Of a stretch of DNA of 64,000 nt, positions 2,034-63,901 are shown piece by piece. The notes beneath the pieces are model-generated. The model was given only the letters and a program-made list of their open reading frames with translations. It ran no database searches and was not told the origin of the DNA. Each line of letters opens with the position of its first letter. Positions within the stretch are counted from its first letter, which is position 1. The position numbers were made by a program, and so were the translations under genes. The stretch is from a virus: IMG/VR virus record IMGVR_UViG_3300022908_000003, positions 1-64,000 of that record; one strand, 5' to 3'.

Positions 2034-2305
2034 GTTTCCATTAATCCTTTTGTAAGTAATTCGTGAGTTTCTACAGATTTCAAGATAGGCTCAAGCCATT
2101 GGAGTTCTGTGTAAGTAAAATGTACTTTACTACTTGCTCCCTCTTTAGTTATAAAACCCCATGCTCCAGGGCAGTAACCATAGATCGTAACACCAAATTT
2201 TACAAATAAAGCTTTCAACTCTTCTAGTCTCTGTAGTTTTTCGTGAGTAGGTACAATTTTTGGTTTGCCGTTATTCTCTGGTGAAAGATTTTCTGTGATT
2301 TTCAA
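2009..2305 (-). CDS. Hypothetical protein, TTG start
   Basis: 98 aa from a TTG at 2303-2305. AAGGAG lies 9 nt upstream, and the start overlaps the upstream TGA stop. The reading frame stays open further upstream, but that stretch codes for another small gene. The N-terminus contains ENLSPENNGKPK, encoded by a good copy of the dispersed element. The rest (about residues 20-98) looks globular and is not recognised. Confidence 0.55.
   Translation of the reverse strand: MKITENLSPENNGKPKIVPTHEKLQRLEELKALFVKFGVTIYGYCPGAWGFITKEGASSKVHFTYTELQWLEPILKSVETHELLTKGLMETCAKNITK
2262..2287 (-). repeat. Dispersed 26-bp element
   Basis: Gene-strand orientation, read in the frame that gives SPENNGKP near the N-terminus of the gene at 2009-2305. 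Confidence 0.7.
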
Positions 2306-3754: not shown

Positions 3755-4060
3755 TTATAGTTTCCATATAATGAAGGAAAGCAAAGTAAAAATAGCTACG
3801 GCAATAAAAACTTCCATAACATCTTCATTTATTTTAATAGGCATTGCCCTCATTATCCCAACTCGTTTTAAGATCTTCTTTTCTTCTACCAGAGAAACGG
3901 GAACCTCAGTTTCTTCCGGTTCTTCCCATCTACGAACTATAATAGTGTTCCCATAGTGTGTTGTAGTTACAAACTCATAGCCATGATCATTATGTAACTT
4001 TTCTAGTTCTTCGCAAAAACGGTATGGTGCAACATTATTTATTGGCTTATATCTCCACAT
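3755..4060 (-). CDS. Hypothetical protein with C-terminal membrane anchor
   Basis: 101 aa. Residues about 1-75 look soluble, and the C-terminus (VFIAVAIFTLLSFIIWKL) is one membrane helix. The middle segment EVPVSLVEEKK is encoded across an element copy in the reverse orientation. No family recognised. Confidence 0.55.
   Translation of the reverse strand: MWRYKPINNVAPYRFCEELEKLHNDHGYEFVTTTHYGNTIIVRRWEEPEETEVPVSLVEEKKILKRVGIMRAMPIKINEDVMEVFIAVAIFTLLSFIIWKL
3881..3905 (+). repeat. Dispersed 26-bp element, reverse orientation
   Basis: A strong copy pointing against transcription (TTCTTCTACCAGAGAAACGG on the plus strand). It encodes VPVSLVEE on the other strand. Confidence 0.75.
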
Positions 4061-13719: not shown

Positions 13720-14182
13720 TTTTTCTTTCTTTATCCTTTGTTAGTATATCGGTTGTTTTATTCATAAAGTTTTCAAACTCTTCTTCAGAACCATTAAACA
13801 TAGTCTGTATTATAAAGAATTTAAATATATCAAATGTCCATGGTTTCATAGCCTCATTGGTTATGTAACTATTAACTAAATAGGCTAAACATCTTTCTTC
13901 GTTCTCTGTAAAAACTGTAGGAACAAAGAGGGTTTCCGTTTTCTCTGGTACAAGTTCTACTGTATCTCTTTGTATCTCTGTATGTCTTTCTTCTGGTGGC
14001 AGATGCCCTGATGTGTCTATTTCTTGCATTGCAACCCACTTTACTACGTACCCAAAATTATACGTAGTTTTTCCAAGTTCTCCTTGTACTTTAAATCCTT
14101 CAGGGTAGAGTGAAGTAGGTACTGACATTGCAATAACTTGCTTGCCTACATACTTTTCTAAATCTTTTACAGGAATTGGCAA
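13712..14182 (-). CDS. Hypothetical protein
   Basis: 156 aa. The N-terminal part (YVGKQVIAMSVPTSL...FGYVVKWVAM) is barrel-like. Residues about 80-90 (LVPEKTETLF) come from an element copy. The C-terminal half is helical (FENFMNKTTDIL). Not recognised. Confidence 0.55.
   Translation of the reverse strand: MPIPVKDLEKYVGKQVIAMSVPTSLYPEGFKVQGELGKTTYNFGYVVKWVAMQEIDTSGHLPPEERHTEIQRDTVELVPEKTETLFVPTVFTENEERCLAYLVNSYITNEAMKPWTFDIFKFFIIQTMFNGSEEEFENFMNKTTDILTKDKERKNG
13931..13955 (-). repeat. Dispersed 26-bp element
   Basis: Gene-strand orientation, frame giving VPEKTETL. It joins a barrel-like and a helical half, so it behaves as an inter-domain linker. Confidence 0.7.
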
Positions 14183-16171: not shown

Positions 16172-16199
16172 GGTTGCCCGTTTTCTCTGGTACAGAAAT
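16172..16199 (-). repeat. Dispersed 26-bp element, intergenic
   Basis: Gene-strand copy in the gap between the Flp pilin gene and the SSB-like gene, 49 nt before the ATG at 16122. Confidence 0.8.
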
Positions 16200-16201
16200 C
16201 T

Positions 16202-16366
16202 TTACTGTAGGACATTTGAGGTGTCGTTGAGTTTGTTAGAAGCAGTGCCGCCTAGAAATCCCATGGCGGCTATTGCAACAACTCCGATAAGTGCAACAAG
16301 AAGAACGTATTCAACTATTGTTGCTCCGTCTTCATCCTGTATAAACCGATTGTAGAATGTTTTCAT
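16202..16366 (-). CDS. Flp/Fap-type (type IVb) pilin
   Basis: 54 aa, read directly from the minus strand. A short basic leader (MKTFYNRFIQDEDG) is followed by ATIVEYVLLVALIGVVAIAA, a membrane helix. GATIVEY has the prepilin-peptidase arrangement of Flp pilins: cleavage after Gly, then Glu at +5 and Tyr at +6. The length matches the family. Flp pilins form Tad adhesion pili in bacteria. No Tad secretion gene is present, so a host-supplied machinery or a different use must be assumed. The start directly follows the upstream TAA. Confidence 0.75.
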   Translation of the reverse strand: MKTFYNRFIQDEDGATIVEYVLLVALIGVVAIAAMGFLGGTASNKLNDTSNVLQ

Positions 16367-17892: not shown

Positions 17893-19107
17893 TTATACCT
17901 CTACTAGTTCAGGAAATACATGAAGACGCTTATGATAGTACCTAGCTTCGGCAGGGTTAGCACAAGCTTGTAAGAATTCACAAGGTCTGTTCCATGCTTT
18001 ACAAGAAGCTGTATTTCTAAAGCTATTCTTTGGGTTTTCGTTCTGCCATTCATAAAGACGTTCTAGGATATAGTCTAGATCGATATCACGATATTCTTCA
18101 ACATCTTTCCATGGGATTGATTGGGGATGCCTGTAGAAATAGTCATTAGGATTTTCTTTAATATGCTTATCAACTCTTGCAAAGAATTCAGGTAGCGTTT
18201 CGGGTTTTCTATAGTAGGTTCCGCTATATTCCTGCCCTGGTTTCTTTATTAGGTTGTATAAAACCCCTTTCGGCTTCTCTTTGTACACATACTCCAAAGC
18301 AAGCATGTACACCATAACTTGCAGTTCAAAACCAAGACGATCTAAAGTAACTTTATCTTTTATATCTCCTTTGGTCTTACTTTCGAATAACCACAATTCT
18401 CCATTTTTATTACGAAATACTCCATCAAATTTTCCACGAATTTGTATAGTAATTCCGTTTCGTAGCTTATAAGGCATAGAGAAGACTTGTTCTACAGCAA
18501 GCCAGTTCATATTAACGTCTGTCTTGTAGTGTTGGTAGTACCTCTTCAAGACAACATTACATAGACCATTGGTTTGCTGAAAAGACTGTTGATCTTTGAG
18601 ATCAAATTTCTTTAATTTCTTTACTATATCTAAGCTACTTGAAGTTAATACATGATCTATGGTCTGATATATAGTCTGTGTAGTAGATTGAACTTTATAC
18701 TTCTTACGATGAAGATACACCTTATCGAGAGTATTATGAAAATGATCCCCAAAATCTAATGCTGTATCAGGTCTTGTAGTTTTCTCAAGCCCTAGTATCA
18801 TCTTCCAATAACACTTCATAGGACAAAGCGCAAATAAAGCTATTGTAGACTGCGTAACCCCATCTCTCCCCATATCCCAGAAATTACGTAAATACTGTGG
18901 TTTCCCCGTTTTCTCTGGTGTAGAAATACCTGATCCTTTGCAAACTCTACAAGAACCACTACTAGAAGGATCTTCTCCTGTTCCTTCGCAGTATTTGCAA
19001 ACATCTTCAGGTATTTTTACCATTTTCGGTTTTTGATTTAAAAGGAAATTTAAATCCTTTGTTAAGTTGCTTGAAATCTGTTTCGATTTCAGTTTAATTT
19101 TTACCAT
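17893..19107 (-). CDS. PD-(D/E)XK nuclease (RecB/Cas4-like) with zinc knuckles
   Basis: 404 aa. Tag MVKIKLKSKQI, then CKYCEGTGE and CRVCKGSG knuckles near residues 39-62, then a linker STPEKTGKP made by an element copy. The nuclease follows: QSTIALFALCPMKCYW, LDFGDHFHNTLDKVY (catalytic His), LWLFESKTKGD (E-x-K), and LQVMVYMLALEYV, the QxxxY motif. C-terminal Cys (CKAWNRPC, QAC) may join CPMKC in an Fe-S site as in Cas4/AddB. Likely supplies 3' single strands for the Sak4/SSB pathway. Confidence 0.8.
   Translation of the reverse strand: MVKIKLKSKQISSNLTKDLNFLLNQKPKMVKIPEDVCKYCEGTGEDPSSSGSCRVCKGSGISTPEKTGKPQYLRNFWDMGRDGVTQSTIALFALCPMKCYWKMILGLEKTTRPDTALDFGDHFHNTLDKVYLHRKKYKVQSTTQTIYQTIDHVLTSSSLDIVKKLKKFDLKDQQSFQQTNGLCNVVLKRYYQHYKTDVNMNWLAVEQVFSMPYKLRNGITIQIRGKFDGVFRNKNGELWLFESKTKGDIKDKVTLDRLGFELQVMVYMLALEYVYKEKPKGVLYNLIKKPGQEYSGTYYRKPETLPEFFARVDKHIKENPNDYFYRHPQSIPWKDVEEYRDIDLDYILERLYEWQNENPKNSFRNTASCKAWNRPCEFLQACANPAEARYYHKRLHVFPELVEV
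18899..18927 (-). repeat. Dispersed 26-bp element
   Basis: Gene-strand copy giving STPEKTGKP between the zinc knuckles and the nuclease domain. Confidence 0.8.
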
Positions 19108-20323: not shown

Positions 20324-20852
20324 TTGCTTTAAAAACTCCTTTAACAAATAATCCAATGCCTACTGCATCCGTTGCATGATCTCCATATTCCCATTTCTTA
20401 CAACCGATGCGTTGACGTATTCTATTTTCCACCGCATATTTAGTAAGCTGCCCTTTCCAAGATACAGGTACTAGAACAATTTTTGTACATTTAGTAAACA
20501 CTAGAAAAGTTTCTTGCAGTCTTCCTACCATTACAGCAAGTTTTACAAGATCGCTATCCCCACCGTCTTTACCAGTTGCGCAAGTCATACCTTTCTTCTG
20601 TCGAAAGAAGTTAGGTAACTCAATATAAACATCTACACTTATATTATTTTCTATTAGTGGAACTTCTTCAATAACTTCAATAAGTCTTGCTAGTATTTCG
20701 GATTGACGTAATGACCAATTAGTTTGTGTAGCTTTTGTAGTACTATGGAGAACTCCCGTTCTCTCTGGTAGTAGATCTTGTTTGTTACCAGAGAAAATGG
20801 CAAACCCCGTTCCTCCCAAACCTGGATCAATACAGATTATTTTATGTTGCAT
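20310..20852 (-). CDS. RuvC-like Holliday-junction resolvase
   Basis: 180 aa. ICIDPGLGGTGFAIF at residues 6-20 holds the first catalytic Asp, VYIELPNFF near 77 the Glu, and GDHATDAVGIGLF near 160 the Asp pair, as in the RuvC / phage resolvase fold. It probably resolves recombination or replication junctions before packaging. Residues 16-36 are encoded across two facing element copies, so the first catalytic loop leads into unusually DNA-constrained sequence. Confidence 0.8.
   Translation of the reverse strand: MQHKIICIDPGLGGTGFAIFSGNKQDLLPERTGVLHSTTKATQTNWSLRQSEILARLIEVIEEVPLIENNISVDVYIELPNFFRQKKGMTCATGKDGGDSDLVKLAVMVGRLQETFLVFTKCTKIVLVPVSWKGQLTKYAVENRIRQRIGCKKWEYGDHATDAVGIGLFVKGVFKANATR
20750..20776 (-). 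repeat. Dispersed 26-bp element, first of an inverted pair
   Basis: Gene-strand copy giving LPERTGV, a third reading frame compared with STREN and SPEKT copies. Confidence 0.75.
20783..20808 (+). repeat. Dispersed 26-bp element, second of an inverted pair
   Basis: Reverse copy 6 bp from the previous one (ACCAGAGAAAATGGCAAACC on the plus strand). Its complement encodes GFAIFSGN of the RuvC-like protein. Confidence 0.6.
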
Positions 20853-24023: not shown

Positions 24024-24353
24024 TTATACAGGTACTCCTAACGCTCTCTTCATATTAGAGAAAATAGACATAGAACGAATTCCTTCGTTGTTGAACTTCT
24101 TTGCTTTCTTGCCACACAAAGCACAGTAGATACCTTCGCTGCACTGAGACACAGTGCCAAGCCTTATAGCATTATTAGACTTTTCTTCTGATAAATCTAC
24201 AGAAATCTTATGTGTTACCTTTAACTCCCAAATTTCACTACCGCAATGTGAACAAATTTTTGGTTGCCCGACTTCTCTGGTAGAAGAATTAACTACAGTC
24301 TTTCGCTTTGCAATTGAATGAGGTGTCTTATTCACCCGGAACTTTACCGCCAT
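24024..24353 (-). CDS. Zinc-ribbon protein
   Basis: 109 aa. Start MAVKFRVNKTPHSIAKRK, a tag-like stretch. SSTREVGQPK from an element copy then leads into CSHCGSE near 34 and CALCGKK near 77, a four-Cys ribbon with a long insert. Probably nucleic-acid or protein binding. It overlaps the first operon gene by 10 nt. Confidence 0.55.
   Translation of the reverse strand: MAVKFRVNKTPHSIAKRKTVVNSSTREVGQPKICSHCGSEIWELKVTHKISVDLSEEKSNNAIRLGTVSQCSEGIYCALCGKKAKKFNNEGIRSMSIFSNMKRALGVPV
24262..24288 (-). repeat. Dispersed 26-bp element
   Basis: Gene-strand copy, frame STREVGQP, between the N-terminal tag and the zinc ribbon. Confidence 0.8.
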
Positions 24354-25727: not shown

Positions 25728-25758
25728 GTGTTTTTTTCTTTCTGTCTACTATTTGCTA

Positions 25759-25785
25759 TTCTTCTACCAGAGAAAGCGGTACTTC
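25759..25785 (+). repeat. Dispersed 26-bp element, reverse, intergenic
   Basis: A strong copy (TTCTACCAGAGAAAGCGG) in the gap between two late genes, pointing against transcription. Confidence 0.75.
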
Positions 25786-32205: not shown

Positions 32206-35200
32206 TTACCTCTTCCGTCTGATACCAAAGTTTTTAGCAATCTGCTGTCCTTGTGTTACTTTAGAAGATCTCATACCTCTTACATCAGGAGTGTTTACTA
32301 TCTGAGTAAATTTAACATTAGTTACATGTTGAATTGGGGTTTCCTCGCCTTCTCTGGTAGAAGATTTCCCGTAGCCCATTTTGCTTAGTGGAGTTACTGT
32401 ACCTGGTCTATCTGGAACTAGGAACTCAGGTTCGCCTCTTTCTCCTACAATAATTGGAGTAAGACCTGAATAATGCCCTCCATCGCCAAAGGTAGGAATA
32501 GGCCCATCAAATCCTGCTCCGAAAGGATCTCCATTAGATAATGGGCTTGCACTTCCTCCACTACCCCCCATTATCCCGCCAATTAATCCCCCTAACCAGG
32601 ACATACCGCCAGAGAAACCGGAACCACTGCCAATTTGTCTAGTTAGATATTGCATTAACTGTGACTGTAAATAATCTTGAGCCATCTTTGCAATAGTCTG
32701 TTTGAAGTTATTTGCAATTGTTCCGAATAACCTTCCAAATACATTTTGCAGATTATTCCCCATTCCATGTAGTTTGTCGTTAGTAATGTCTATCTGGTGT
32801 TGTATGTCTTTTATTCGTTGAGTGTAAGGATCTTGACCTGAAGCACCTTGACCATACTTATATCTATAAGATGCCTCTCCCATTTGTGCTTGTTCTAGTT
32901 GTTGTTTTAGATTATAAAGGTCTGTTTGGGCTTGTCCTTTAGCTTGTGGGTTAGGATTAAATGCATTAGTTATTCCCTCCATTATTCCACTACTAGTTCC
33001 TTGAGCTAGTCCTTGAAACATTTTTGCAAGTTCTAAGGTTGTGTTTGCCCTATCTATATTTTTCTTCCAGAAATCTTCCATGGTTTTTTCATCCATGTCA
33101 GTAGGAAGAATATAGTCCATAATGCGATTGCCATCTTTATCAAGAGTTACTTTTAGCTCTCTAAATCCGTTTAACCATTGATGGAAAGGATCTGTAGACC
33201 TTGCATCTAATAGTTGTTTCTGCATTCCATTGACATTAGAAATTAAAGCATCTTTAGCTCTTAGCGCATCTGCTTTATTTATAGAAGAAACTATGGAATT
33301 CTCATAATCCTTAATCATGAGATCTCCTTCAGTTCCCCAATACCTTCTAACGTTAGTTATTGCAGTCTTATTCTTTGTTTCCCATTCGAATACTGCATTT
33401 TCCGTGTCAGTATAAAGACCTGATAGAGAATGCTCAATACCTGATAGCTGTTCAGTTATGTCTCTTGTCTGAGATTGCATAAAGTCTTTACCAACTGCTT
33501 TGGCTTCATCAAGACCTTGCTTTCTAACTTTATTCTGTGTATCTACAAACTTAACAAAATCTCCAATATTATTGTAGTCAGAGCCAAATAGCTTTGCTAT
33601 CTGATCATTGTTAGTTTTATTCCATTGGTCTACGGCTGATTGACCCGCGTTGGAATTCTCTGGTGAGAATTTCCTATTCATTTTTTCTTGTAACTGCTTA
33701 CTTTGAAGGTCAATATTTCTATTTTGCTCATCAAGCCAATTTCTTGTATTATTTTGATCTGAAATATTACCAGAAGCTATTATTTGATCAAATGATGATT
33801 TGTACTGAGGATCATTTCTTGATATATGAAGTTTATTTATCAAGGCTTCTATTGCAATACGTGCGGCATCAGCTTGAGTTTTTACAGGAGCAAGGCTTTC
33901 GGATGCTTTTGTAGCCCATGAATTAGTTAGAGAATTTAGTTCCTCTAATGCCATGGTTTGCCGTGTAGCTTCTATTCTTGCAGATCTTTCGGCTTCTGTT
34001 AGAAGATCCCAGGTATCCGCACCTCCAGCAGCTTGTACAGCCGCTCTTGCTACTTCGTCTCCTGCATTCTTCTGAGCAAATGCAAGATCATGCATTGCCT
34101 TAGTATTTGCAATAACTTCTTTACGTCGATCAACAGAAGCCATTTTAGAAAGCATGTCTTGCTTTTGGCTATCAGACATTTCTTTCCATTCAGACAAACC
34201 TCCTTGAAGTTGCCCTATAGCTTGTCTTTTTAGTAAAGGAAGTGCAGAAATGTCATTTTCATCATTAAGCTTCTTGATAGATAATGCAACTCTATGAGCA
34301 CTTTCGGCAAGATCAGCTTGTTTAGCTTTATCTAGAAGAATATTCTTCTGCGAATTGCTAATTCCGTATAAGTCGCCACCTTCTTGTAGTTTTGCTAGTT
34401 CCTGATTTAAATGTACATGTCTTGTTTCAGTATCTACTTCTACGTTCTTTAGAAATATTACTTTATTAAGACCTTGTACTTCATTATCATATCTTTTTAC
34501 TAAAGCTTTTGCAGCGGCTTCAGCTGCTTTTTCTGCTTTCTTCTTTGCGTCGGCTTCTGCTTTAAGCTTATCTAACATGGCTTGATCTATGCCATGTGTT
34601 GTAGGCGGCATATTTGGAATTGCGCCGTCTCCATAAAGCTTTGCTTTAGCATAATCAGGATCAAAGTAACTCTGGAAATTATTTAATCCAAAGTGGTTAG
34701 TACCATACTGATCAAACCTATCTCCTTCTCTTCCTATCTCTGCTACATGCCCATAACTCTCATACTTACCTGTTTTCTTGTTATACTCATGCATTGCCAT
34801 AGTATGAGAAAACAAAGCATCACCAGGTTTTAGTACAGTTTGTCCTGGTATAAAAGGCTGTAGAACTCCAGCAGCTTGCATTGCTTTTTCTGTAGCAAAT
34901 GCAGAACCTTTGAATAAGTGATCAAAGATATGAGTACTTTCTTGTACCGTTACTCTGAATAACTCTTGGCAATGATGGTGATAATCTAGTGCTGTTTTAT
35001 CCATCTGCTTTCTTGCAGCAGTTGCAGCAATAGCACCTCCTAGATCCCCAGGAGTTGTTACATTTACTGTACCCGAACCAGCTTGATTATTTGAAGTAAG
35101 AGCATGTAAATTAGACGCTTGTTTAGCATAATCTGATTTCAGTTTATGCAGATCGAATATAGCTTGATCTAGATTTTTCTGTACTTCTGCTCTATTAGTA

Positions 35201-37919: not shown

Positions 37920-38605
37920 CTAATCTTCGTAGTTTCTACGTTGTTTCTTTGGTTTTGATAAGTGCTTTTGTACTAGGTTGTCTGCCTTCTCGTATACTAT
38001 TGCCCATTCTCTCCATGATAAAGCTTCAGGTTCCTTTAGTAATTCAAAGACAGAACAATTTAATATCTTAGCCGCTCTTATTGTACGGTACTGGTGCGGG
38101 AGACTACCGTTAGATCCTCCACTAATGAAGAATTGGGCAATTTCCCGCTCAATGCCTTTGGGGGGTTCTTATGCTCATATACAGCAGAAATTACAGCATA
38201 AATGATTTCAGCTTGTACGTCGGCTTTCTTTACTCCTTCAGGAGTTAGAGGGATTGGGTCTCCATCATCATCACAAAGATCCCACTTAGCAACAAGCTTG
38301 CACATATTTTCTATAGAAGCTGCAAGAGGGCGACCAGAGAAAGTATCACTATTTCTAAGATCAATAGACGCCTCTTCAAATCCAGGCGTCATATGATATT
38401 TTCTGTAATAGACTTCCTCAAGGAATGGTTCATCTTCTCGCTTTGGTCTGCTTGCCGTTGATCCATCTACTAGTTCAAACTCTTCCATGATGATAGACCC
38501 ATCTAGATTTCGTTCATCACTATCTAGATAAACTTTAATAGGGCCAACAAGCTTATCTCTTAGATCTTTTGTACTTGCTTTCTTCTTTTTGGTCGTGGCT
38601 GCCAT
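37920..38605 (-). CDS. Tail assembly chaperone, frameshift product (GT)
   Basis: 228 aa if ribosomes slip -1 on C CCC CCA at 38165-38159. The first 147 or so residues are shared with the G protein. The shifted frame continues as KGIEREIAQFFISGG, RTIRAAKILNCSVFELL, WAIVYEKADNLVQK and ends at 37920, 18 nt before the tape measure ATG. This is the classic G/GT layout of long-tailed phages. The extension recruits the tape measure and tail tube during assembly. Confidence 0.8.
38078..38605 (-). CDS. Tail assembly chaperone, short product (G)
   Basis: 175 aa. A basic N-terminus (MAATTKKKKASTKDLRDKL) is followed by a beta/alpha middle and a helix (ADVQAEIIYAVISAVYEH) just before the slippery run. 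AAAGGAG lies 11 nt before the ATG. By analogy with lambda gpG it coats the tape measure during tail assembly. Confidence 0.75.
   Translation of the reverse strand: MAATTKKKKASTKDLRDKLVGPIKVYLDSDERNLDGSIIMEEFELVDGSTASRPKREDEPFLEEVYYRKYHMTPGFEEASIDLRNSDTFSGRPLAASIENMCKLVAKWDLCDDDGDPIPLTPEGVKKADVQAEIIYAVISAVYEHKNPPKALSGKLPNSSLVEDLTVVSRTSTVQ
38159..38165 (-). promoter_or_regulatory. -1 ribosomal slippery site
   Basis: Minus-strand heptamer C CCC CCA followed by AAGG. The zero frame reads AAC CCC CCA AAG and the -1 frame CCC CCC AAA GGC, so P- and A-site tRNAs can re-pair at all but one position. Confidence 0.85.
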
Positions 38606-38639: not shown

Positions 38640-38668
38640 GGTTTTCCGTCTTCTCTGGTAGAAGATTT
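38640..38668 (-). repeat. Dispersed 26-bp element, intergenic
   Basis: A strong copy covering the stop of the tail tube gene and the leader of the chaperone gene, 34 nt before its ATG. Confidence 0.8.
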
Positions 38669-41117
38669 ATAGAGCAGCTTGTGCAGTAATTGTTTCCATT
38701 ACTAAGTCGCCGTTTGTTTCTTCATCAGCAGCATAGAAATCATACATTCCTGCATAGAGATCATCGTCGTCTGTTAGATCCTGGTTTGATACATAACAGG
38801 CTAATGTAGTTTTGAAGGAATTATAGTAAGTGATCATTGTCACTGTTTCAATAGAGGAACCGGTTGCTACAAACTGTAAGTATCCTAGTGTAGACTGCTC
38901 CAGTGAAGCTAGGAACTTATCACTTTCAGAACCTACAGCTACAGTAATCTTTCCTCCGATATCTGCTTTCTTTTCTAGAATACCTCCTATTGTAGTATCT
39001 GCACTATTAATGAATAGCTTTGACTTGTACTTACCCTTTACCGAGAACTCAAGTGCTCTTGCTTGAAGGAGCTTACTTGTGCCTAGATCGCTAAATAGCG
39101 TGTTAGAGTAGAATATGTCAAAGTCTGTCATATTCATCAAGTTAGCTGGAACCAATGTGGGAGATGCAGTCAATGTAATAGGGTAATCAGGATATGCCCC
39201 AAAACCATTTATTGTATAGTCTGCTGTATTCTCATTGATAGTAATAGTCATATCGGTTGCAGTACCGAATGCCATTCTATCATTAGACCCCTGATTGTTA
39301 CCATACTCAAATGTCATTGTCTGCGGAGTGTCTACATTTCTGCTGTTCATCTTGTAGACACGTTTCTTTGAAAGCGTTCCAGGAGTTGTTAGTACTGGAG
39401 TAGCTGTGATAAGCATTGCAGCCCAATAAGGCATTACAGAATACCCAAGCTGTCCTGAAATGCTCCACTCAGCCCATCGCTTACCTCTTTGCTGCCCTAT
39501 TGCAGATTTTGTGCCATCATCCTGCGCAGTCTTTACGTTGTTCTGTCTCTTCGGAGGTGTAAAGGTTCCGTTTTTAATCCACTTATCGGATGCTACAACG
39601 GTACCCTGGGTAGAAGTGTCTTCAAGTCCAAATTGAAAACCTCTAAGTGTCTTTGATTTAAGCATTGTATTTCCATTCCTCAATATTATCGCAGAAACTA
39701 TGTTAGAAGCTGCGCCTTCTACCGTGCCATTGAAACCAGATACATAGTATTTGTATAGAGCATTAAATTCTATATTCTTATCTGTGTACGTTTCCGTATT
39801 CCACGGAACTGGATTTTTATTGATCTTATAAAAAACTCCAGGATTAATTGGATTTTTCTTATTCATCGAAAGGTAATGGTCAATTACTTCATCTTCGGAA
39901 AGCAATCGACCATACCAAGCAAAGTTTGATAAAAAGCCTGTGAAATATCCCGCACTATATCCAAGTAACGATTGCCCTATGTATATTCCTGGATTTTCTG
40001 CAAAGTCTCTAATAGATCCAAAACCTACTGGAGTTGTATATGTCACCAGACCGTTACAATAAACAACTATAGTTTGTCCAACCGGATCTGAAACTATTGC
40101 AATATGGTTCCAAGTGTCAGCAACCATACCTGTTACAATATCATCGTATATTACTCCAAATGCAAACATTTGTAGAATAGTTGAGCCATTCATTTTAAGC
40201 CCAAACCCTACACTCTCTATGCCTGCTGCTATCAAACCTCCTGCTGTAAAAAACCCACCACCAGAGCTACCAGACGGAGTGTTAATCCAAAATTCTAAAG
40301 TTATTGCAGAGTGCGTAGGTGTAAGTCCTGTACCAGAGAAATAGGAAACCCCATCAAAATAAACAGCACTTGGTTGGTTATCCGGTCCCTTTGATCTTCT
40401 TATAGTAGATCCAGTGGATACTAGGTTTGAATTAGAAATACTGTCTTTTGCATTTCCGAATGTATCATCTAATTTCCAGTAGTTTATTAAACCAAGAGTT
40501 TCTTCTACTTCCGTAGTATATGTGACATTTTTTCTATAGATATTAAAAGAGTAATTTAGATTACTACCAGAAGTTAGAGATAGGTTAGTTGGTCTTGTTA
40601 TATTTAAATCTATAAAATCAACATTCTCTTCAGCTTCTATGTCAGGCTCGTTTGGAGTTATAAGCAGAGGAAAAAAAGCAGAAGAAGGAATTGCTTGTAC
40701 AGATCTACTAGGACTAGACCAACTTATTGTTAAACCTTCTACAGAAATATTACTACTCTGAAAATAATAAACTTCTATGTTATACTTCTTGTTTGCAGTT
40801 GCAGAAAATGTTTTACCTGCTGAGAGGAATTCATCTCCATAATCAGGGCCACCAGAAGTAAAACTATCAAATATAATTTGACCATCTATTACTAGCTTTA
40901 CACCATCATGCCCTGCAAAGTATAAATTGTAGACTTCAGTAAAAGCAAAAGTAATAGTGCCTGTCCACTTTACACTATAGCTAAAAGTAGAAAGCCCTGA
41001 ACCTACTGGATTTGTTGCAAAATCTAAGTTAAGATTTGGATCTACTCTCGATAGCACATATTGCCCATCGGCTAATGTAGTTCCATTATAGTAGTTACCT
41101 AGAAGTCCATTAGCCAA
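38667..41117 (-). CDS. Major tail tube protein fused to N-terminal PA14 and LamG domains
   Basis: 816 aa from TTG 41117. Residues 1-140 are PA14-like (LLGNYYNGTTL, WTGTITFAFTEVYNLYFAG, GVKLVIDGQIIFD). Residues about 205-430 are LamG-like (LINYWKLDDTFGNAKDS, ITLEFWINTPSG, WNHIAIVSDP). Residues 485-816 look like a tube protein (ASDKWIKNGTFTPPKRQNN, AEWSISGQLGYSVMPYWAAML). An ATG at 39665 with GAGGA 11 nt upstream could give the 332-aa tube part alone. Position before the chaperones confirms the tube role. PA14 and LamG bind glycans. Confidence 0.75.
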   Translation of the reverse strand: MANGLLGNYYNGTTLADGQYVLSRVDPNLNLDFATNPVGSGLSTFSYSVKWTGTITFAFTEVYNLYFAGHDGVKLVIDGQIIFDSFTSGGPDYGDEFLSAGKTFSATANKKYNIEVYYFQSSNISVEGLTISWSSPSRSVQAIPSSAFFPLLITPNEPDIEAEENVDFIDLNITRPTNLSLTSGSNLNYSFNIYRKNVTYTTEVEETLGLINYWKLDDTFGNAKDSISNSNLVSTGSTIRRSKGPDNQPSAVYFDGVSYFSGTGLTPTHSAITLEFWINTPSGSSGGGFFTAGGLIAAGIESVGFGLKMNGSTILQMFAFGVIYDDIVTGMVADTWNHIAIVSDPVGQTIVVYCNGLVTYTTPVGFGSIRDFAENPGIYIGQSLLGYSAGYFTGFLSNFAWYGRLLSEDEVIDHYLSMNKKNPINPGVFYKINKNPVPWNTETYTDKNIEFNALYKYYVSGFNGTVEGAASNIVSAIILRNGNTMLKSKTLRGFQFGLEDTSTQGTVVASDKWIKNGTFTPPKRQNNVKTAQDDGTKSAIGQQRGKRWAEWSISGQLGYSVMPYWAAMLITATPVLTTPGTLSKKRVYKMNSRNVDTPQTMTFEYGNNQGSNDRMAFGTATDMTITINENTADYTINGFGAYPDYPITLTASPTLVPANLMNMTDFDIFYSNTLFSDLGTSKLLQARALEFSVKGKYKSKLFINSADTTIGGILEKKADIGGKITVAVGSESDKFLASLEQSTLGYLQFVATGSSIETVTMITYYNSFKTTLACYVSNQDLTDDDDLYAGMYDFYAADEETNGDLVMETITAQAAL
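40330..40353 (+). repeat. Dispersed 26-bp element, reverse
   Basis: ACCAGAGAAATAGGAAACCC on the plus strand. Its complement encodes YFSGTG in the LamG domain. Confidence 0.5.
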
Positions 41118-41122
41118 AATGG

Positions 41123-41150
41123 GGTTCCCCGTTCTCTCTGGTAGAAGAAT
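41123..41150 (-). repeat. Dispersed 26-bp element, intergenic
   Basis: Near-consensus. Its GGAACC end is exactly 5 nt before the TTG start of the tail tube gene, in place of a normal ribosome-binding site. Confidence 0.9.
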
Positions 41151-41155
41151 ACAAA

Positions 41156-41644
41156 CTATTCTTGGTAGTATTCCATTTCGTAAATACCGCCAAGATTTAT
41201 ATAGTCTGTGCCTTGTTGATTACTTGAGTATTTTATAAATCTGTTGTTTATACATGACATTATTCTTATATTTATTGTGCTATCGTCTGGATCTGTCCAC
41301 AACTCTTGACACTTAGGTCTTCCTGTATTAATATCAGTAATACCAGGCCAATGAAATGTTTCTTCAATTAAATTAGCTATAGGAGATAGTAGGGAGAAAT
41401 CTTCTCCGGCCATTACTGCTTTAATTTGTAGTAGCCATCTACCTTTCATCCTTGAACCAAAGTTACTGTTCATATTCTGTTGTGCAACAGTAACCACCAT
41501 TGCTGCTGGGGTTTGGTCTACTTTGTTACCACCTGAGATAATCTCTGAATAGAAATCAGCATTATTTATAGGCTCTTGTGACCATTTAGGATCTGTAGTA
41601 AGTTTCGTGTAGATGTATTTGGCTAACGTTGTAAGTTCGTTCAT
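41156..41644 (-). CDS. Tail terminator / completion protein candidate
   Basis: 162 aa. MNELTTLAKYIYTKLTTDPK at the start, AAMVVTVAQQNM and WLLQIKAVMAG in the middle. Size and place just before the tail tube gene fit the tail terminator (gpU-like) role. Assignment rests on position more than motif. Confidence 0.55.
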   Translation of the reverse strand: MNELTTLAKYIYTKLTTDPKWSQEPINNADFYSEIISGGNKVDQTPAAMVVTVAQQNMNSNFGSRMKGRWLLQIKAVMAGEDFSLLSPIANLIEETFHWPGITDINTGRPKCQELWTDPDDSTINIRIMSCINNRFIKYSSNQQGTDYINLGGIYEMEYYQE

Positions 41645-42153
41645 TATTTGAACTCGCTGAATGTAGAAAATTTAGCTTTCACAGATAAACCTTTATAGGC
41701 AACTCTTATTGCATTGCTTAGATAGGCTCTGTGGTTCCAGACAGCAGGAGTTAAGAAAGCTTGCGCGCCTCTATTTGGTGTTCCGTATTCATTAGGTTCT
41801 CCATGCTCTGCTCCTACTACTACCCATACTTCCATTGGATTTTCTGGAGCAATCGACGGAAAGAAATTATATCTCATTCCCGAAGTCATCCTAATACCTT
41901 TTGGAGTAGACCCTGCTGCTTTAGCTAAATCATATTTTTCCTGTGACTTAGATCTTGCTTCATCATAATCACTATGATCTTCACTAACTACGTATATGCT
42001 TTCTTTTAGATACTCTGTGTCAACAGGAGCAAGAGATTTTGCTTCGTCTCTTATACTTATTGCAGTCTCTAAGATAGCTGTCTTTGCAGCTGCATTAACC
42101 ATTGCAGTTATTGTTGTAAAACCACTTGTATCTAATCTAACTCTTTTTAACAT
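41644..42153 (-). CDS. HK97 gp10-like neck/tail protein
   Basis: 169 aa. AISIRDEAKSLAPVDTEYLKE near 32 and GEPNEYGTPNRGAQAFLTPA near 125 match the HK97-gp10 family (A..LAPVDTG.L..SI ... YG....PFL.PA). It links the connector to the tail terminator. Confidence 0.8.
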   Translation of the reverse strand: MLKRVRLDTSGFTTITAMVNAAAKTAILETAISIRDEAKSLAPVDTEYLKESIYVVSEDHSDYDEARSKSQEKYDLAKAAGSTPKGIRMTSGMRYNFFPSIAPENPMEVWVVVGAEHGEPNEYGTPNRGAQAFLTPAVWNHRAYLSNAIRVAYKGLSVKAKFSTFSEFK

Positions 42154-42543
42154 TTACTTTTCTTCAGCAAGTAAAGCTATATCAGTTTGCCCACTCTCTC
42201 TGGTAATATCTATAACCTTGTATCTTATTACTACACCAGAAGGATTGCCGCCGGAGGTTTCTACTTCGTCTCCTATTTTTACTATAGTAGTTCTAGGTAC
42301 ATATATTGTTCTAAGTACTTTCCTGTCTACTATATTATCTTCTTCTGTATCTGGTGTTGTAGTATTTATATCATCATCTACTTTACATTTAACAGATATA
42401 GGAGTAGCAAATCCTTTAGTAAATCCTCCTTGCCCATTAGACACTTTAGGTAAGAAAGAAAATAAAGTAAGATTGTCTTCAAAGGAAAGTTCTACAAGAG
42501 AAGAGAAATTATCCAACATAGCAGGAGTTACAAACCATGTCAT
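42154..42543 (-). CDS. Head-tail connector / stopper candidate
   Basis: 129 aa, beta-rich (TPISVKCKVDDDIN, IYVPRTTIVKIGDEVETSG, VVIRYKVIDITRE). It sits where the SPP1 gp16 / lambda FII-type stopper is expected. The strand ITRESGQT is encoded by an element copy. Confidence 0.6.
   Translation of the reverse strand: MTWFVTPAMLDNFSSLVELSFEDNLTLFSFLPKVSNGQGGFTKGFATPISVKCKVDDDINTTTPDTEEDNIVDRKVLRTIYVPRTTIVKIGDEVETSGGNPSGVVIRYKVIDITRESGQTDIALLAEEK
42185..42209 (-). repeat. Dispersed 26-bp element
   Basis: Gene-strand copy giving ITRESGQT in the stopper-like protein. Confidence 0.6.
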
Positions 42544-43293
42544 TTACATTTCTCCATGATCTCCAGGGTAGTAGCCTGTACCATCTGGAAGTGTAAAAGT
42601 CTTATGGCGGTTATTTGGAGATAATGGCCCTCTTGTCATTGTTATATCTTGGGATTGATCATTAACATAGGCATTTGCATATTCTGTTATTGTTGCCATT
42701 ATCAAACTTAATCCAAAATCCCACCATTGCTGTTCTAGACTTTGAACTACAGTTGATTTAGGACTAGAAGCAAACTGTAATGTTGTAGTTCCTTTCTTAA
42801 ATAGAAGCATTTCTCCAGTAGGAGATTTTGAACCTATGGCCGGTCTAACTTTGCTTGCTATTAGATAAGAAATTCCAGCATCATAGGCATCTTGATAACT
42901 TGTACTAAACGCCCAATAATCAGGCATATTAGAAAATACTTTTAACTGTGTGTAGATATCATTGAAGTATTTGTCTAAAGTTATATCAGATGGGGTTAGT
43001 TCACCTGTTCCTAGTAAAGTTCTTACAGCAGGGTAGACACTATTCCATGTAGCTACGAAGGTAAACGGATAAGTCTTTATTGAGTTATCTGAAGTAATCC
43101 ATTTCCAAACAGCTTTATGGTTTCCTCCCATAACAGGAGTGTAATCTATAGAAATTTTAAATTGAGAACCTTCAGGGGAGACAGTTGCTAACAAGTCCTG
43201 GTCAACTTCTCCATTAGGTTTCGTTACAGTTAAATATGCGGCAACTGCACTTGCAACTACCCTAGTAAAAGTTGTAGTTTCTTGTACTTGCAT
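42544..43293 (-). CDS. Head-tail adaptor candidate
   Basis: 249 aa from an ATG after GGGGAG. The frame is open to a TTG at 43308. An N-terminal beta domain (FTRVVASAVAAYLTVTKPNG, TFVATWNSVYPAV) is followed by a helical part (ITLDKYFNDIYTQLKVFSN, SYQDAYDAGISYLIASKV) as in gp6/gp15-type adaptors that dock on the portal. Assigned by place and helical pattern. Confidence 0.55.
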   Translation of the reverse strand: MQVQETTTFTRVVASAVAAYLTVTKPNGEVDQDLLATVSPEGSQFKISIDYTPVMGGNHKAVWKWITSDNSIKTYPFTFVATWNSVYPAVRTLLGTGELTPSDITLDKYFNDIYTQLKVFSNMPDYWAFSTSYQDAYDAGISYLIASKVRPAIGSKSPTGEMLLFKKGTTTLQFASSPKSTVVQSLEQQWWDFGLSLIMATITEYANAYVNDQSQDITMTRGPLSPNNRHKTFTLPDGTGYYPGDHGEM

Positions 43294-43309
43294 CATCTCC
43301 CCTTTCAAG

Positions 43310-43561
43310 TTACCCCCACGGGCTTAGATCATCTTTGTACTTCTCAGGAAATAAAACCTTGCCTGTTTCGTCAATCTCTTGCCCTCTTGCATTAATGAGA
43401 ATACCAGAGGAATTGTAAAGCATACCTCCCTTTACAGGACATTTATTGTACTTATGTTCCCCCTTCTCAAATGTGCCTGAGTGATTAAGTTCCTCCACTT
43501 CTGTAGCTTCTTCTCGCTGTCCAGGTATGTCACTTCTCTTTCTTACAATAGTTGCTGCCAT
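43310..43561 (-). CDS. Hypothetical small head protein
   Basis: 83 aa, directly after the major capsid gene. Polar, with KYNKCPVKGGMLYNSSGI in the middle and KVLFPEKYKDDLSPWG at the end. Not recognised. Confidence 0.5.
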   Translation of the reverse strand: MAATIVRKRSDIPGQREEATEVEELNHSGTFEKGEHKYNKCPVKGGMLYNSSGILINARGQEIDETGKVLFPEKYKDDLSPWG

Positions 43562-43602
43562 CTTTACCTTCTCCTTTTGTATTTAATCTGGTTTGTTTGC
43601 TT

Positions 43603-44715
43603 TTAATACGTTAGTGCAGGAGCTACATAAGTATTACCACCCATGTACCCAACAACCCCGTTAGTTCTCTCTTTGATGCCCATACCATATTCCCTTTCCC
43701 ATGCCTTAGCATAAAGAGGATGGCTTTCATCTTCAAACGAAACAAAGAGTTCCCCTGCATTTGTTGCAGCAGGGCCTCCATTTGTTCCCATCGGATTTGC
43801 TGCACGAATACGCCTTGCAATAGGAGCAGGGTTTCCCTTCATAAAGGCAAATACGTACCCGGCAGGCATCCATGGCTTAGTCCATACCGCTGCTCCCCGA
43901 AACCAACCTATCTGCCTATTGTAAATATCAATTTCATCAAGAACACCCTGCCCATATTCCTGATTAGCTGATTTAATTACAGTAGCATAAGTGAATGCCT
44001 TGAAATCTGCAAGAGCACTAATTGAAGTTTCATCTGAGCTAGAGATGAAAATAACTGCACTACCTCTGTTATAGTGCTCAATGACATTCTCTATTACAGC
44101 CCTTAACCAAGTATTCGTTACTCCATTAATTGCCATATAGTGAGTATGGGTAGTAGGGTCAAAACGTCGTCCATTCTGTCCTGGCGGTATTGGCAGACCA
44201 TCTGCATTTACCAAAGCCCTTACAGGGATTGGGAAAGCTTCTTGATGGTCTATTAGAGGATCTGTAGTAGAGTAATTAACTCCGGTAAATAAAGTCTTCT
44301 GTATATTATACTGCAAGAGCAGTACATCTCCAATAAGAACTTGATCTACTTGACCGGCAAGATCCGAAGGGCTATGGTTCTGCATGTACCTACGGTTCCA
44401 TGCAATAGCTGCTTGGTAATCTTTTAGTGGAAGTCCTATAATAGCTCCAGGCTTGCCCTTCTGAGCCTGCGGCGTTCCCATTTCATCCATTTCCTGAAAA
44501 CGAAAATTAGATGTAGTAGAACCATACATTGTAAGACGTTCTGTGGTATCTGTAACAAAATCCTTCAACTGATCTTGTACAAGAGCATTATAAGCATTTA
44601 GAGTTACTGCAACAGCATCCCATACTTTCTGCTCTCCAAAATCTATGATAGATTGAAAGTTTGCACCTTTAATAATATCATAAGAAGTATTTGTGCCAAA
44701 TGTATTTAGTGGCAT
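43603..44715 (-). CDS. Major capsid protein, HK97 fold
   Basis: 370 aa. An N-terminal helix (NFQSIIDFGEQKVWDAVAV) and a loop (RFQEMDEMGTPQAQKG) precede the spine-helix region (DLAGQVDQVLIGDVLLLQYN). The P-domain follows (WLRAVIENVIEHYNR, VIFISSSDETSI, PWMPAGYVFAFMKG). No prohead-protease-type delta domain is evident, and a separate scaffold gene lies upstream. The ATG is 5 nt after an intergenic element. Confidence 0.85.
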   Translation of the reverse strand: MPLNTFGTNTSYDIIKGANFQSIIDFGEQKVWDAVAVTLNAYNALVQDQLKDFVTDTTERLTMYGSTTSNFRFQEMDEMGTPQAQKGKPGAIIGLPLKDYQAAIAWNRRYMQNHSPSDLAGQVDQVLIGDVLLLQYNIQKTLFTGVNYSTTDPLIDHQEAFPIPVRALVNADGLPIPPGQNGRRFDPTTHTHYMAINGVTNTWLRAVIENVIEHYNRGSAVIFISSSDETSISALADFKAFTYATVIKSANQEYGQGVLDEIDIYNRQIGWFRGAAVWTKPWMPAGYVFAFMKGNPAPIARRIRAANPMGTNGGPAATNAGELFVSFEDESHPLYAKAWEREYGMGIKERTNGVVGYMGGNTYVAPALTY

Positions 44716-44720
44716 TTCGA

Positions 44721-44748
44721 GGTTCCCCGTTCTCTCTGGTAGTGAAAC
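44721..44748 (-). repeat. Dispersed 26-bp element, intergenic
   Basis: Near-consensus copy. The GGAACC end is 5 nt before the capsid ATG. Confidence 0.9.
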
Positions 44749-51270: not shown

Positions 51271-51299
51271 AGTTCCCCGTTTTCTCTGGTAGAAGAATA
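51271..51299 (-). repeat. Dispersed 26-bp element, intergenic
   Basis: Near-consensus copy in the short gap before terS, 27 nt before its ATG. A separate ribosome-binding site lies in between. Confidence 0.85.
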
Positions 51300-54782: not shown

Positions 54783-54808
54783 GGTTTGCCAACCTCTCTG
54801 GTGAAAGA
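54783..54808 (-). repeat. Dispersed 26-bp element, intergenic
   Basis: Diverged copy (GGTTGGCAAACC in place of the G run), ending exactly 5 nt before ATG 54777. Confidence 0.65.
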
Positions 54809-54873
54809 TAGTGTGCCGCCGAGCGAAGCGAGGCGGGTGTCCTATAGAAAATATGAATAGAAAATATACTATT

Positions 54874-55730: not shown

Positions 55731-55753
55731 TCTCTGATTTCCTTTAGTGTAAA

Positions 55754-55863
55754 TCGGGAGGGAAGGGTTCGAACCTTCATGTAGAGAGTATAGTAAACTG
55801 ATCAGAGATCTATAGTGTCTCAGCCAAGTGCTCTTGGTGCATTGCCGATTATGCTACCTCCCG
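55754..55863 (-). tRNA. tRNA-like gene with abnormal anticodon region
   Basis: Acceptor CGGGAGG/CCTCCCG, D-arm GCAT/ATGC with GG in the loop, and T-arm GAAGG-TTCGAAC-CCTTC are perfect. The region between D- and T-arms is about 59 nt, with CCAAG/CTTGG closing only a 4-nt loop plus a second imperfect hairpin. The isotype cannot be read. A defective tRNA, an unusual class II tRNA or a mimic are options. No CCA is encoded. Confidence 0.5.
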
Positions 55864-55884
55864 GTGTTTGTTACTGTAGGTAAT

Positions 55885-55963
55885 TTGGGTGGAAAGGTCT
55901 CGAACCTTTACCGACTACGCGGAAAACCCGTCACGCCGTTCTACCTGTTAAACTACACACCCA
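55885..55963 (-). tRNA. tRNA-like gene, isotype uncertain (possibly Lys-UUU)
   Basis: Acceptor TGGGTG/CACCCA with a bulge, D-arm GTTT/GAAC with AGGT in the loop, and T-arm AAAGG-TTCGAGA-CCTTT are good. The anticodon arm does not form a clean 5-bp stem with a 7-nt loop. One weak fold gives a loop GTTTTCC with anticodon UUU. No CCA is encoded. 22 nt from the other tRNA-like gene. Confidence 0.5.
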
Positions 55964-55969
55964 TGTTAG

Positions 55970-56818
55970 TAAATTTTCTACAGGGGGTAGTTTCTAAAAT
56001 AAATTTTCAAAATTTAATAGAGTTCCTCCCCCTCCCGGCTTCATATGAAAAGGTGCCTACCCCCCCCCCCTGCCCTTAGTGTATTTATTGCACTAATTCT
56101 GCTCAGTGGTTGATGGCTTACTGTATTTTCTTTAGTAGATCTCCCTATACATTCCATACCCCTATACATTCATGTCTTAGTGTAGTAAATATACTAAAGA
56201 AAATACAATAGACTAGCTTGTAATAGTGATGATTACATGTTATTACAGGAATTGCAGTTGGGTAGATACTATATCGAACCATATCAGATTATATCACGAT
56301 ATACCGGGCTATACCGTTGTATTAACTATGATACAGCCATTCCCTCAGTGTATACCGCTATGGTTTCCAACTACCTATACATAGTCTGTAGTGAGTTGCA
56401 TTGTACGCTCAGTCTGCCTATCTGTCAAGATTTTACTACCAAACTACCAATAACTATCATTATCTGTCAAACCTACCCTTATACATCTATTCTCCTTGTC
56501 CCTACGTTGACCGTACAGAGCGTTTACCGGTCTCTCATGACTTCTACCTCATTGTCCATCTAAGCATGTCTACACAACTGAATTTAATACGGTTTAGTGG
56601 CTATTTGCATCTCATAGAAGCATAGAAAAATTTTTTAATATTCCCTGCCCTTCCTGCCCTTCCCTCTACCCAGCTAACCATATCTCAGCTATGTCCTAAT
56701 CCCTGTCACAAAAAAAAACCACACAACTCGAATGAGTTGCATGGCTTGATTAACTACGTTCCTACTACCTGGGTTAGATCTCTATTGGCCTACCTGGGTT
56801 AGATCTCTTTATTTTTTT
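55970..56818. other. Gene-free region, candidate origin or regulatory region
   Basis: About 850 bp without a credible ORF. It contains a poly-C run near 56063, a 15-bp inverted repeat (GTATTTTCTTTAGTA at 56123-56137, complement at 56192-56206), many TATACC/ATATC words at 56265-56390, and an 18-bp direct repeat TACCTGGGTTAGATCTCT at 56766 and 56791. Iteron-like AT-rich content suggests an origin, but this is inference. Confidence 0.45.
56708..56744 (-). terminator. Rho-independent terminator
   Basis: Minus strand: CCATGCAACTC, loop ATTC, GAGTTGTGTGG (11-bp stem, one mismatch) followed by nine T. It ends the small-gene transcript 75 nt past the gene at 56819. Confidence 0.85.
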
Positions 56819-59767: not shown

Positions 59768-60207
59768 GCACTTTACTAAATTTTCTTTAGTCCCGGTTCC
59801 AAAGTCCCGTTCTTTCTGGTAGAAGAAATCATGCCCGATAACTTCCATTGTATTCTTTACACTTACTCAGTAAGTCCCTAGAATGGCTGTTTACAGCACA
59901 AGTCTAAGCAATTCTCTGTCCCTGTAATCCATAGAAACTCTGATAGTTACGTACTTTGTCTACTATGTTTCTTATCTATAGAAAATCCTATACGAACAGA
60001 TTTCAACATCAAAACTGCGTTTATGTAGACATAACTCTATACCTTCTACGTTCGCCGTAGCAAAAAGTCAACGTACAATCACCCCAAAACCTTTATTGAA
60101 CGCGTCTCCGTGCGTTCTACGGTCAAATAGAGGTACTACAATCCGTTCGCTCAAACAGCCATAACCGAACAAAGACCGTTTTCACCATACCCAGGTACCC
60201 GGACATG
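59768..60207. other. Gene-free stretch
   Basis: About 440 bp upstream of the promoter at 59739-59767 with no credible ORF. It holds one element copy. Nothing else convincing is seen. Confidence 0.4.
59803..59829 (-). repeat. Dispersed 26-bp element, intergenic
   Basis: Gene-strand copy with five extra bases between GGTTCC and the rest. Upstream of a sigma70 promoter rather than next to a start codon. Confidence 0.75.
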
Positions 60208-60280: not shown

Positions 60281-61225
60281 TTATGCTGCCTTTTTCCGTA
60301 CTACAATTTTCTTCCCTGTAGTTGTCGGAACCTTTGCTGCACTTACCGGTTTTGTAGCAACTGCAACAGGTACGCTTGTGCTAGTTGCAGTTGCTATCTT
60401 CTTTTTGGTTGGCTTAACTGCGTTTACATCAACCGGTAAAGTAACCTTTCCACCATCAAAATCAAACGTATGACCTTCCAGTACTGAATTGCCTTCAGGA
60501 GCGTCAACACATAATCCGGCTTCTACCAAATCAGTTGTTGCAAAATATTCAAACCGGAACTTTGCAGGAAGTCCGATAGTTCCCCTTGAAGAAAGACTAT
60601 ATACTGTAGCTTCTTTAGTGAAACAACGAACTACGGCGGCAAGATACAATCCAACTGCCGAAGTAGAGAACGGGTGATTTTTGCAATGAATTACGGCATG
60701 GTCCCTGCTACCGCGCGCATTACCTAGACTTGAAATAGCATAAGCTAATTCAGAAACTTTATCGCCAAAACCATGAATAACTTCGCCGCCATTAAACCGC
60801 GTATTATCACGCCCGGTCTTTTCGGTCTTTGTCGTTGTAGTCTTTGCAGGTACATTCGCAGTTTTGCCGTTCTTACTGGTAGAAGATTTAGTATTATCTT
60901 CTGCCTGTATCTTTGTACGAGCAGCCCGAACTTTTGCCATCTTATCATTAATCTCTTGTTGTGCTTTATTCGCCCCTACGTTCGTTTTTACGGCAGTTGA
61001 AGTCTTTGTCGGGACTTCTGCCTTAACTGCCGTTTCGCCTTCATTTGTCTGAGCTATTTCTTTTGCCTTCGCAACTCCACGGATACCCTTACCTAGTGCC
61101 GAAGTTCCGCACATAATCTTCCATAGCTTAGTATCTGCATCTACTATAAGCCGATATTTCCCCTTGTCTCCAATTGCTGCAAGGTTTCCGGTAGTTGCGT
61201 CTTTCTTGAAAGTGAGTTCTGCCAT
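60281..61225 (-). CDS. Hypothetical Lys/Thr-rich protein with a central folded domain
   Basis: 314 aa from ATG 61225 (AAGGAA upstream); the open frame reaches 61276. A short beta region (KYRLIVDADTKLWKIMCG), a long Lys/Thr/Ala linker containing SSTSKNGKT from an element copy, and a domain at about 150-250 (FGDKVSELAYAISSLGNARG, AVIHCKNHPFSTSAVGLYLA). A second linker follows, ending GKKIVVRKKAA. Not recognised. Composition suggests an abundant nucleic-acid or capsid-associated protein. Confidence 0.55.
   Translation of the reverse strand: MAELTFKKDATTGNLAAIGDKGKYRLIVDADTKLWKIMCGTSALGKGIRGVAKAKEIAQTNEGETAVKAEVPTKTSTAVKTNVGANKAQQEINDKMAKVRAARTKIQAEDNTKSSTSKNGKTANVPAKTTTTKTEKTGRDNTRFNGGEVIHGFGDKVSELAYAISSLGNARGSRDHAVIHCKNHPFSTSAVGLYLAAVVRCFTKEATVYSLSSRGTIGLPAKFRFEYFATTDLVEAGLCVDAPEGNSVLEGHTFDFDGGKVTLPVDVNAVKPTKKKIATATSTSVPVAVATKPVSAAKVPTTTGKKIVVRKKAA
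60861..60888 (-). repeat. Dispersed 26-bp element
   Basis: Gene-strand copy with one change in the core (CCAGTA), giving SSTSKNGKT in a disordered linker. Confidence 0.65.
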
Positions 61226-63700: not shown

Positions 63701-63867
63701 TAAATCCACCATACCTCATAACCATAAACTAACATAGAGTAATCTAGTGTAGAAACTTCTTCTTTCTCTATGAGTTCACAATAACGAATTGTGAAGCGGT
63801 TGATAGATCTCTTTTTATTGTTTTGTCGATTTAACCGCATTTTACGCGGTTTGTTTTTTGGCTTCAT
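63700..63867 (-). CDS. Small basic protein
   Basis: 55 aa, read directly: MKPKNKPRKMRLNRQNNKKR, then a compact C-terminal part ending GYEVWWI. Very basic N-terminus, so perhaps nucleic-acid binding. Its ATG is exactly 5 nt after an element copy and no ordinary ribosome-binding site is seen. Confidence 0.5.
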   Translation of the reverse strand: MKPKNKPRKMRLNRQNNKKRSINRFTIRYCELIEKEEVSTLDYSMLVYGYEVWWI

Positions 63868-63872
63868 TTTCC

Positions 63873-63901
63873 GGTTTCCGTTATTCTCTGGTAGAAGAAA
63901 T
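63873..63901 (-). repeat. Dispersed 26-bp element, intergenic
   Basis: Strong copy 5 nt before ATG 63867 (gene-strand end CGGAAACC). Confidence 0.85.

Follow-up and report, generated by a model that had tools for sequence, protein, structure and literature searches.

A long, orientation-biased sequence element repeated throughout a phage genome and set before four of its start codons

Four genes of a bacterial virus carry the same sequence of about 26 nt exactly 5 nt upstream of their start codons, raising the question of whether this element serves to start genes or answers to something else. The stretch of DNA in which we analysed it (the window) comprises bases 1-64000 of a 68,053-bp virus record. 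Because bases 1-181 of the record match bases 67873-68053 at 98.9% over 181 bp, with two differences, the record is probably near complete with redundant ends; the match suggests terminal redundancy or a circular map. Nearly all genes lie on the minus strand, and about 91% of the genome is coding. Pfam and PHROGs recognise genes for capsid, portal, terminase and a GTA-like tail and, in replication and repair, for DNA polymerase A, primase, a PD-(D/E)XK nuclease, an SNF2 helicase and UDG. Searches with TerL, DNA polymerase, tail and capsid proteins found no close relative in IMG/VR or among GenBank phages.

Several other features of the genome deserve record. Two regions, each about 1 kb long, lack a convincing gene (about 55731-56818 of the window and 64944-65960 of the record). 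The first contains two Rfam tRNA matches on the minus strand, at 55754-55863 and 55886-55962, both missed by ARAGORN; the former is 110 nt long and has about 40 extra bases between its anticodon and T arms. The phage also encodes a Flp/Fap-type pilin of 54 aa (16202-16366, minus strand; Pfam PF04964, E 7.7e-9), and a copy of the element directly follows the stop codon of this gene.

Element copies upstream of start codons

An earlier note on this DNA had placed the element 5 nt before four starts, and the minus-strand sequence bears this out exactly: it reads ACCAGAGAGAACGGGGAACC-TCGAA-ATG at 44715, ACCAGAGAGAACGGGGAACC-CCATT-TTG at 41117, ACCAGAGAGGTTGGCAAACC-TAAAA-ATG at 54777 and ACCAGAGAATAACGGAAACC-GGAAA-ATG at 63867. 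The longer distances that it gave for two other copies, 27 nt at terS and 34 nt before 38605, are also correct; in both cases the element lies farther off and a strong, separate Shine-Dalgarno site is present (-12.2 kcal/mol at 51243 and -8.0 kcal/mol at 38605). The product of the gene at 41117, taken earlier for a tail tube protein, is instead a protein with PA14 and LamG domains, according to its domain matches. The gaps at 41117, 44715 and 63867 measure 36-39 nt, just enough for the element and a few bases, and several of the gaps of 30-61 nt contain a copy. A GC-rich hairpin that lacks a T-run, CCGCCTCGCTTCGCTCGGCGG, stands just upstream of the copy at 54777 (about 54815-54840, minus strand).

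The arrangement is more regular than chance placement predicts. Of 25 sense copies, four are found no more than 10 nt from a start (0.42 expected, P 8e-4). When the seven sense intergenic copies are placed at random in their gaps, four equal distances have a P of 1.4e-3, or 2.2e-3 with short gaps limited to 3-11 nt; these two values are post hoc estimates made on inferred start codons.

We then considered whether ribosome binding could account for these positions. That the four starts have no normal ribosome-binding site apart from the element, as had been claimed, is literally so, but the element's own GGGG run pairs at two of them. Predicted anti-Shine-Dalgarno pairing is -5.7 kcal/mol at 44715 and 41117, where the element's GGGGAA lies 7 nt before the start, -3.5 kcal/mol and thus weak at 63867, and -6.5 kcal/mol but badly spaced at 54777, where the pairing stretch is about 15 nt upstream. 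The value at 44715 and 41117 is at least as strong as that of 60% of the phage's genes, most of which have an ordinary AAGGA-type site and no element. The GGGG run at the major capsid and PA14/LamG starts can act as an ordinary Shine-Dalgarno sequence, while the Shine-Dalgarno argument is weak at 54777 and 63867. On the simplest reading, an element required for other reasons fills the gap, and the start codon is placed for it to double as ribosome-binding site; this last step has weak support at two of the four starts.

Distribution through the genome

The element has the consensus TTCTTCTACCAGAGA-N2-ACGG-N2-AACC, with a strict core, ACCAGAGA, and variable flanks. The 68-kb record contains 40 exact copies of the core versus 2.2 expected, and a gapped profile search returned 38 copies at 8 bits or more versus 0.35 per shuffled genome; at about 40 copies, the density is roughly one per 1.6 kb, genome-wide (Table 1). 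Coding sequence holds 31 exact cores, 17 sense and 14 antisense, where shuffling of synonymous codons gives expectations of 1.6 and 0.85, and coding copies of the element occupy frames 0, 1 and 2. A protein-level repeat is rejected because all three frames are used.

Core sites number 27 on the minus strand and 16 on the plus strand. Profile copies follow the gene strand at 25:13 overall and at 16:2 among strong copies (at least 18 bits). Sense copies, which recur about every 2.5 kb along the gene strand, are more evenly spaced than by chance (CV 0.51 vs 0.95, p 3e-4), and antisense copies are not (CV 1.05). Non-coding bases make up 8.5% of the genome, yet 7 of 27 sense copies are intergenic (p 0.006). 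Intergenic copies also come closer to the consensus than copies within genes (p 0.0016), a difference to be expected of a nucleic-acid signal under coding constraint. Within genes, sense copies do not cluster towards the 3' end, where the next gene would be served. Two copies within the RuvC-like gene form an inverted pair, 8 nt apart (20754-20806).

The four start-adjacent copies are, then, genuine but form a minor part of a signal that spans the genome. The view of the element as mainly a start-codon feature does not survive a count of about 40 copies, most of them in coding sequence and about one third on the opposite strand.

Outside this genome, viral and cellular contigs contain no more than isolated single matches to the element. 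An IMG/VR search with element patterns gave two of these, in unrelated-looking contigs, and three matches in genome contigs, each single, isolated and at about chance level, led us to reject a host repeat. None of the papers searched prints the sequence.

Table 1. Copies of the element and their setting (window coordinates)
Feature	Position	Strand	Remarks
Copy 5 nt upstream of major capsid start (44715)	44721..44747	-	23.6 bits; MCP by phrog_3990
Copy 5 nt upstream of PA14/LamG protein TTG (41117)	41123..41150	-	30.6 bits, best copy
Copy 5 nt upstream of signal-peptide-like protein (54777)	54783..54809	-	19.6 bits
Copy 5 nt upstream of 55-aa basic protein (63867)	63873..63899	-	21.6 bits
Intergenic copy, 27 nt upstream of terS start 51243	about 51271..51298	-	terS as called in the earlier note; separate strong Shine-Dalgarno
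Intergenic copy, 34 nt upstream of 38605 start	38640..38666	-	separate strong Shine-Dalgarno
Intergenic copy, just past Flp pilin gene	16172..16199	-	
Copy within NlpC/P60 gene	30446..30472	-	sense, frame 0
Copy within coding sequence	24262..24289	-	sense, frame 0
Copy within RuvC-like gene	20754..20776	-	frame 2; inverted relative to next copy; gene label by eye, no Pfam match
Antisense copy, partner in inverted pair	20785..20806	+	
Copy within 1898-aa gene (likely tape measure)	32339..32365	-	
Copy within PD-(D/E)XK nuclease gene	18900..18926	-	frame 2
Copy within coding sequence	2262..2289	-	frame 2
Copy within coding sequence	13931..13954	-	frame 2
Variant copy within coding sequence	60862..60887	-	ACCAGTAAG
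Variant copy in doubtful 42-aa ORF, probably intergenic	59805..59827	-	ACCAGAAAG
Intergenic antisense copy	25758..25779	+	
Antisense copy within coding sequence	3881..3903	+	

Start signals, promoters and other repeated sites

By analogy, the element resembles the SAS of mycobacteriophages, stoperators and phage nick sites; because none of their definitions fully fits, we do not file it under any of them. The SAS of cluster K mycobacteriophages are 13 bp long, have an AGGAG core and are confined almost entirely to gene starts within the non-structural half (PMC3203893), and a survey of eight genomes placed 6 of 125 motifs within ORFs (PMC12699233). Like SAS, which end 3-7 bp before starts, the element is a short asymmetric repeat at the position of a ribosome-binding site, mostly in one orientation and in relatively wide intergenic gaps, with a possible Shine-Dalgarno contribution. 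It differs in its length of about 26 nt, in lying mostly within genes, in its many reversed copies and in spanning the whole genome. Its consensus does not match the 13-bp SAS consensus GGGATAGGAGCCC, and whereas virtually all SAS copies are close to starts, typically at 3-7 nt, only 4 of 25 sense copies are so placed here.

A dedicated, SAS-like translation-start element, recognised by a factor or by the ribosome, with internal copies as decoys or secondary sites, would explain the four exact spacings, the lack of any other Shine-Dalgarno sequence at these starts and the intergenic excess of sense copies. We nevertheless consider it unlikely, given that starts account for only 4 of the roughly 40 copies, that 31 cores lie within coding sequence on both strands, and that most genes start from an AAGGA-type site alone. 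What stands of the earlier proposal that the element acts in translation start is the non-random spacing and, at 44715 and 41117, a GGGG whose distance from the start and pairing energy are both ordinary for a Shine-Dalgarno sequence, and a modest start-linked role is plausible; as a general function it is contradicted by the 31 coding cores.

The same note had offered a promoter or +1 region of a short-leader mRNA, for which we found no support. The surroundings of the copies are not enriched in -10 or -35 hexamers, and neither an RNA polymerase, including the phage-encoded single-subunit enzyme that T7-like promoters require, nor a sigma factor was recognised in Pfam scans or in the best 25 of 50 PHROGs families. 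A promoter read by an RNA polymerase that is phage-modified or went unrecognised, dispersed in sense copies as in T7-like phages and giving short-leader mRNAs, would suit the element's position before the four starts, the largely sense orientation of its strong copies and a density of one per 2.5 kb or so on the gene strand. We judge it quite unlikely, as antisense copies are clearly in excess and sense copies are not concentrated at gene 3' ends, in addition to the missing hexamers and polymerase.

Nor does the element behave as a structured RNA. RNAalifold gives no pairs and hence no consensus fold or conserved secondary structure, no Rfam family matches at the element, and the full element shows no folding advantage of its sense strand over the antisense. 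A two-hairpin RNA element suggested by eye (ACGG-GCAA-CCGT at 16191, GAGAAC-GGGA-GTTCTC at 20769) was rejected, its stem score (z 1.3) being not above background and neither a sense-strand folding advantage nor an RNAalifold structure being seen.

The stoperators of cluster A mycobacteriophages such as L5 are 13-bp repressor sites found in promoters and short intergenic spaces (PMC9283540, PMC6550527). The element shares with them more than 20 asymmetric sites genome-wide and an orientation that may be tied to transcription (16:2 for strong copies, 25:13 for all), and it differs in that most of its copies are in coding sequence, with 7 of 27 sense copies intergenic. It is improbable that the element is a stoperator-like site at which a bound phage repressor would halt transcription elongation: asymmetry, dispersal, orientation bias and several copies in short gaps recall the cluster A sites, but neither an integrase nor a known repressor family turned up among the proteins scanned, including the best 25 of 50 PHROGs families, genes contain most copies and about one third are reversed.

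Very improbable is a mobile or proliferating short repeat, inserted and tolerated in gaps and protein linkers, which would fit the near-identical copies at 44721 and 30446 and the often linker-like peptides at coding copies (e.g. SSTREVGQPK, STPEKTGKPQ), but not the even spacing, the combination of a strict core and variable flanks or the occurrence in every frame, which point to selection on the sequence, nor the copy in the RuvC-like protein, which fits without insertion as judged by eye rather than by alignment; protein alignments across copies are too weak to tell insertion from in-place origin.

Two further comparisons are with sites known at the DNA level. The nick sites of T5, phiKMV-like and tf phages are likewise dispersed, oriented, DNA-level sites with a defined consensus, which in phage tf is 9 nt long and present in 14 copies on one strand only (PMC3517423). 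The element is longer, more degenerate and found on both strands (27 minus and 16 plus core sites), and the defining trait of phage nick sites is a ligase-repairable nick in virion DNA.

The DNA uptake sequences of Haemophilus and Neisseria occur in genes and on both strands. They are short and over-represented genome-wide (PMC1939737), and to that extent the element is like them, a short over-represented sequence throughout a genome; it differs in that theirs are host chromosomal, and we found no host or other genome with multiple copies of the element.

A proposed genome-wide recognition sequence

Our preferred reading, to which we give an even chance, takes the element for a recognition sequence that acts across the genome, is most likely read as DNA and doubles as a ribosome-binding site in short gaps. 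From the observed number, excess, orientation, spacing, frames and pairing energies we infer this DNA-level reading and dual use, as well as the possible reader and molecular role. Because copies occur on both strands within genes, are evenly spaced and are free of frame, the sequence appears to be read as DNA throughout the genome. It would be under selection as a nucleic-acid sequence, with a preferred though not exclusive orientation along the gene strand, and this orientation bias suggests a directional process. The putative reader would be a protein of the phage or host acting over the entire genome, with nicking, recombination, replication, packaging and a transcription roadblock as candidate processes. 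In a short intergenic gap the element would take the room of the ribosome-binding site, and the downstream start codon would then be set where its G-run serves as a weak to ordinary Shine-Dalgarno sequence. We propose that the 5-nt spacing recurs because of this dual use, with no dedicated start function.

Several observations count against a recognition sequence read as DNA. Our searches yielded neither a reader protein nor a relative that would show conserved copy positions. An RNA-level function could underlie the orientation bias, although it would not account for the antisense copies. Sequence downstream of the core folds somewhat better than its own shuffles (z -3.3), an excess that is probably only the composition of the CGG..CC consensus. 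Finally, dual use does not strictly call for a spacing as regular as the exact 5 nt observed (P about 1e-3).

More tentatively, the element may represent a previously undescribed class: a long (about 26 nt), orientation-biased and evenly spaced phage DNA address within coding regions, in all frames, whose putative reader would process or mark phage DNA and which would secondarily provide the ribosome-binding site of some genes. Its distribution also counsels that copies of a motif elsewhere be counted before start-adjacent motifs are called translation signals. If the proposal is true, selection has kept a long DNA signal evenly spaced through a virus genome at visible protein cost, comparable to bacterial Chi sites or uptake sequences though built on a far longer motif, and its reader, once found, would reveal a DNA-handling system in the phage.
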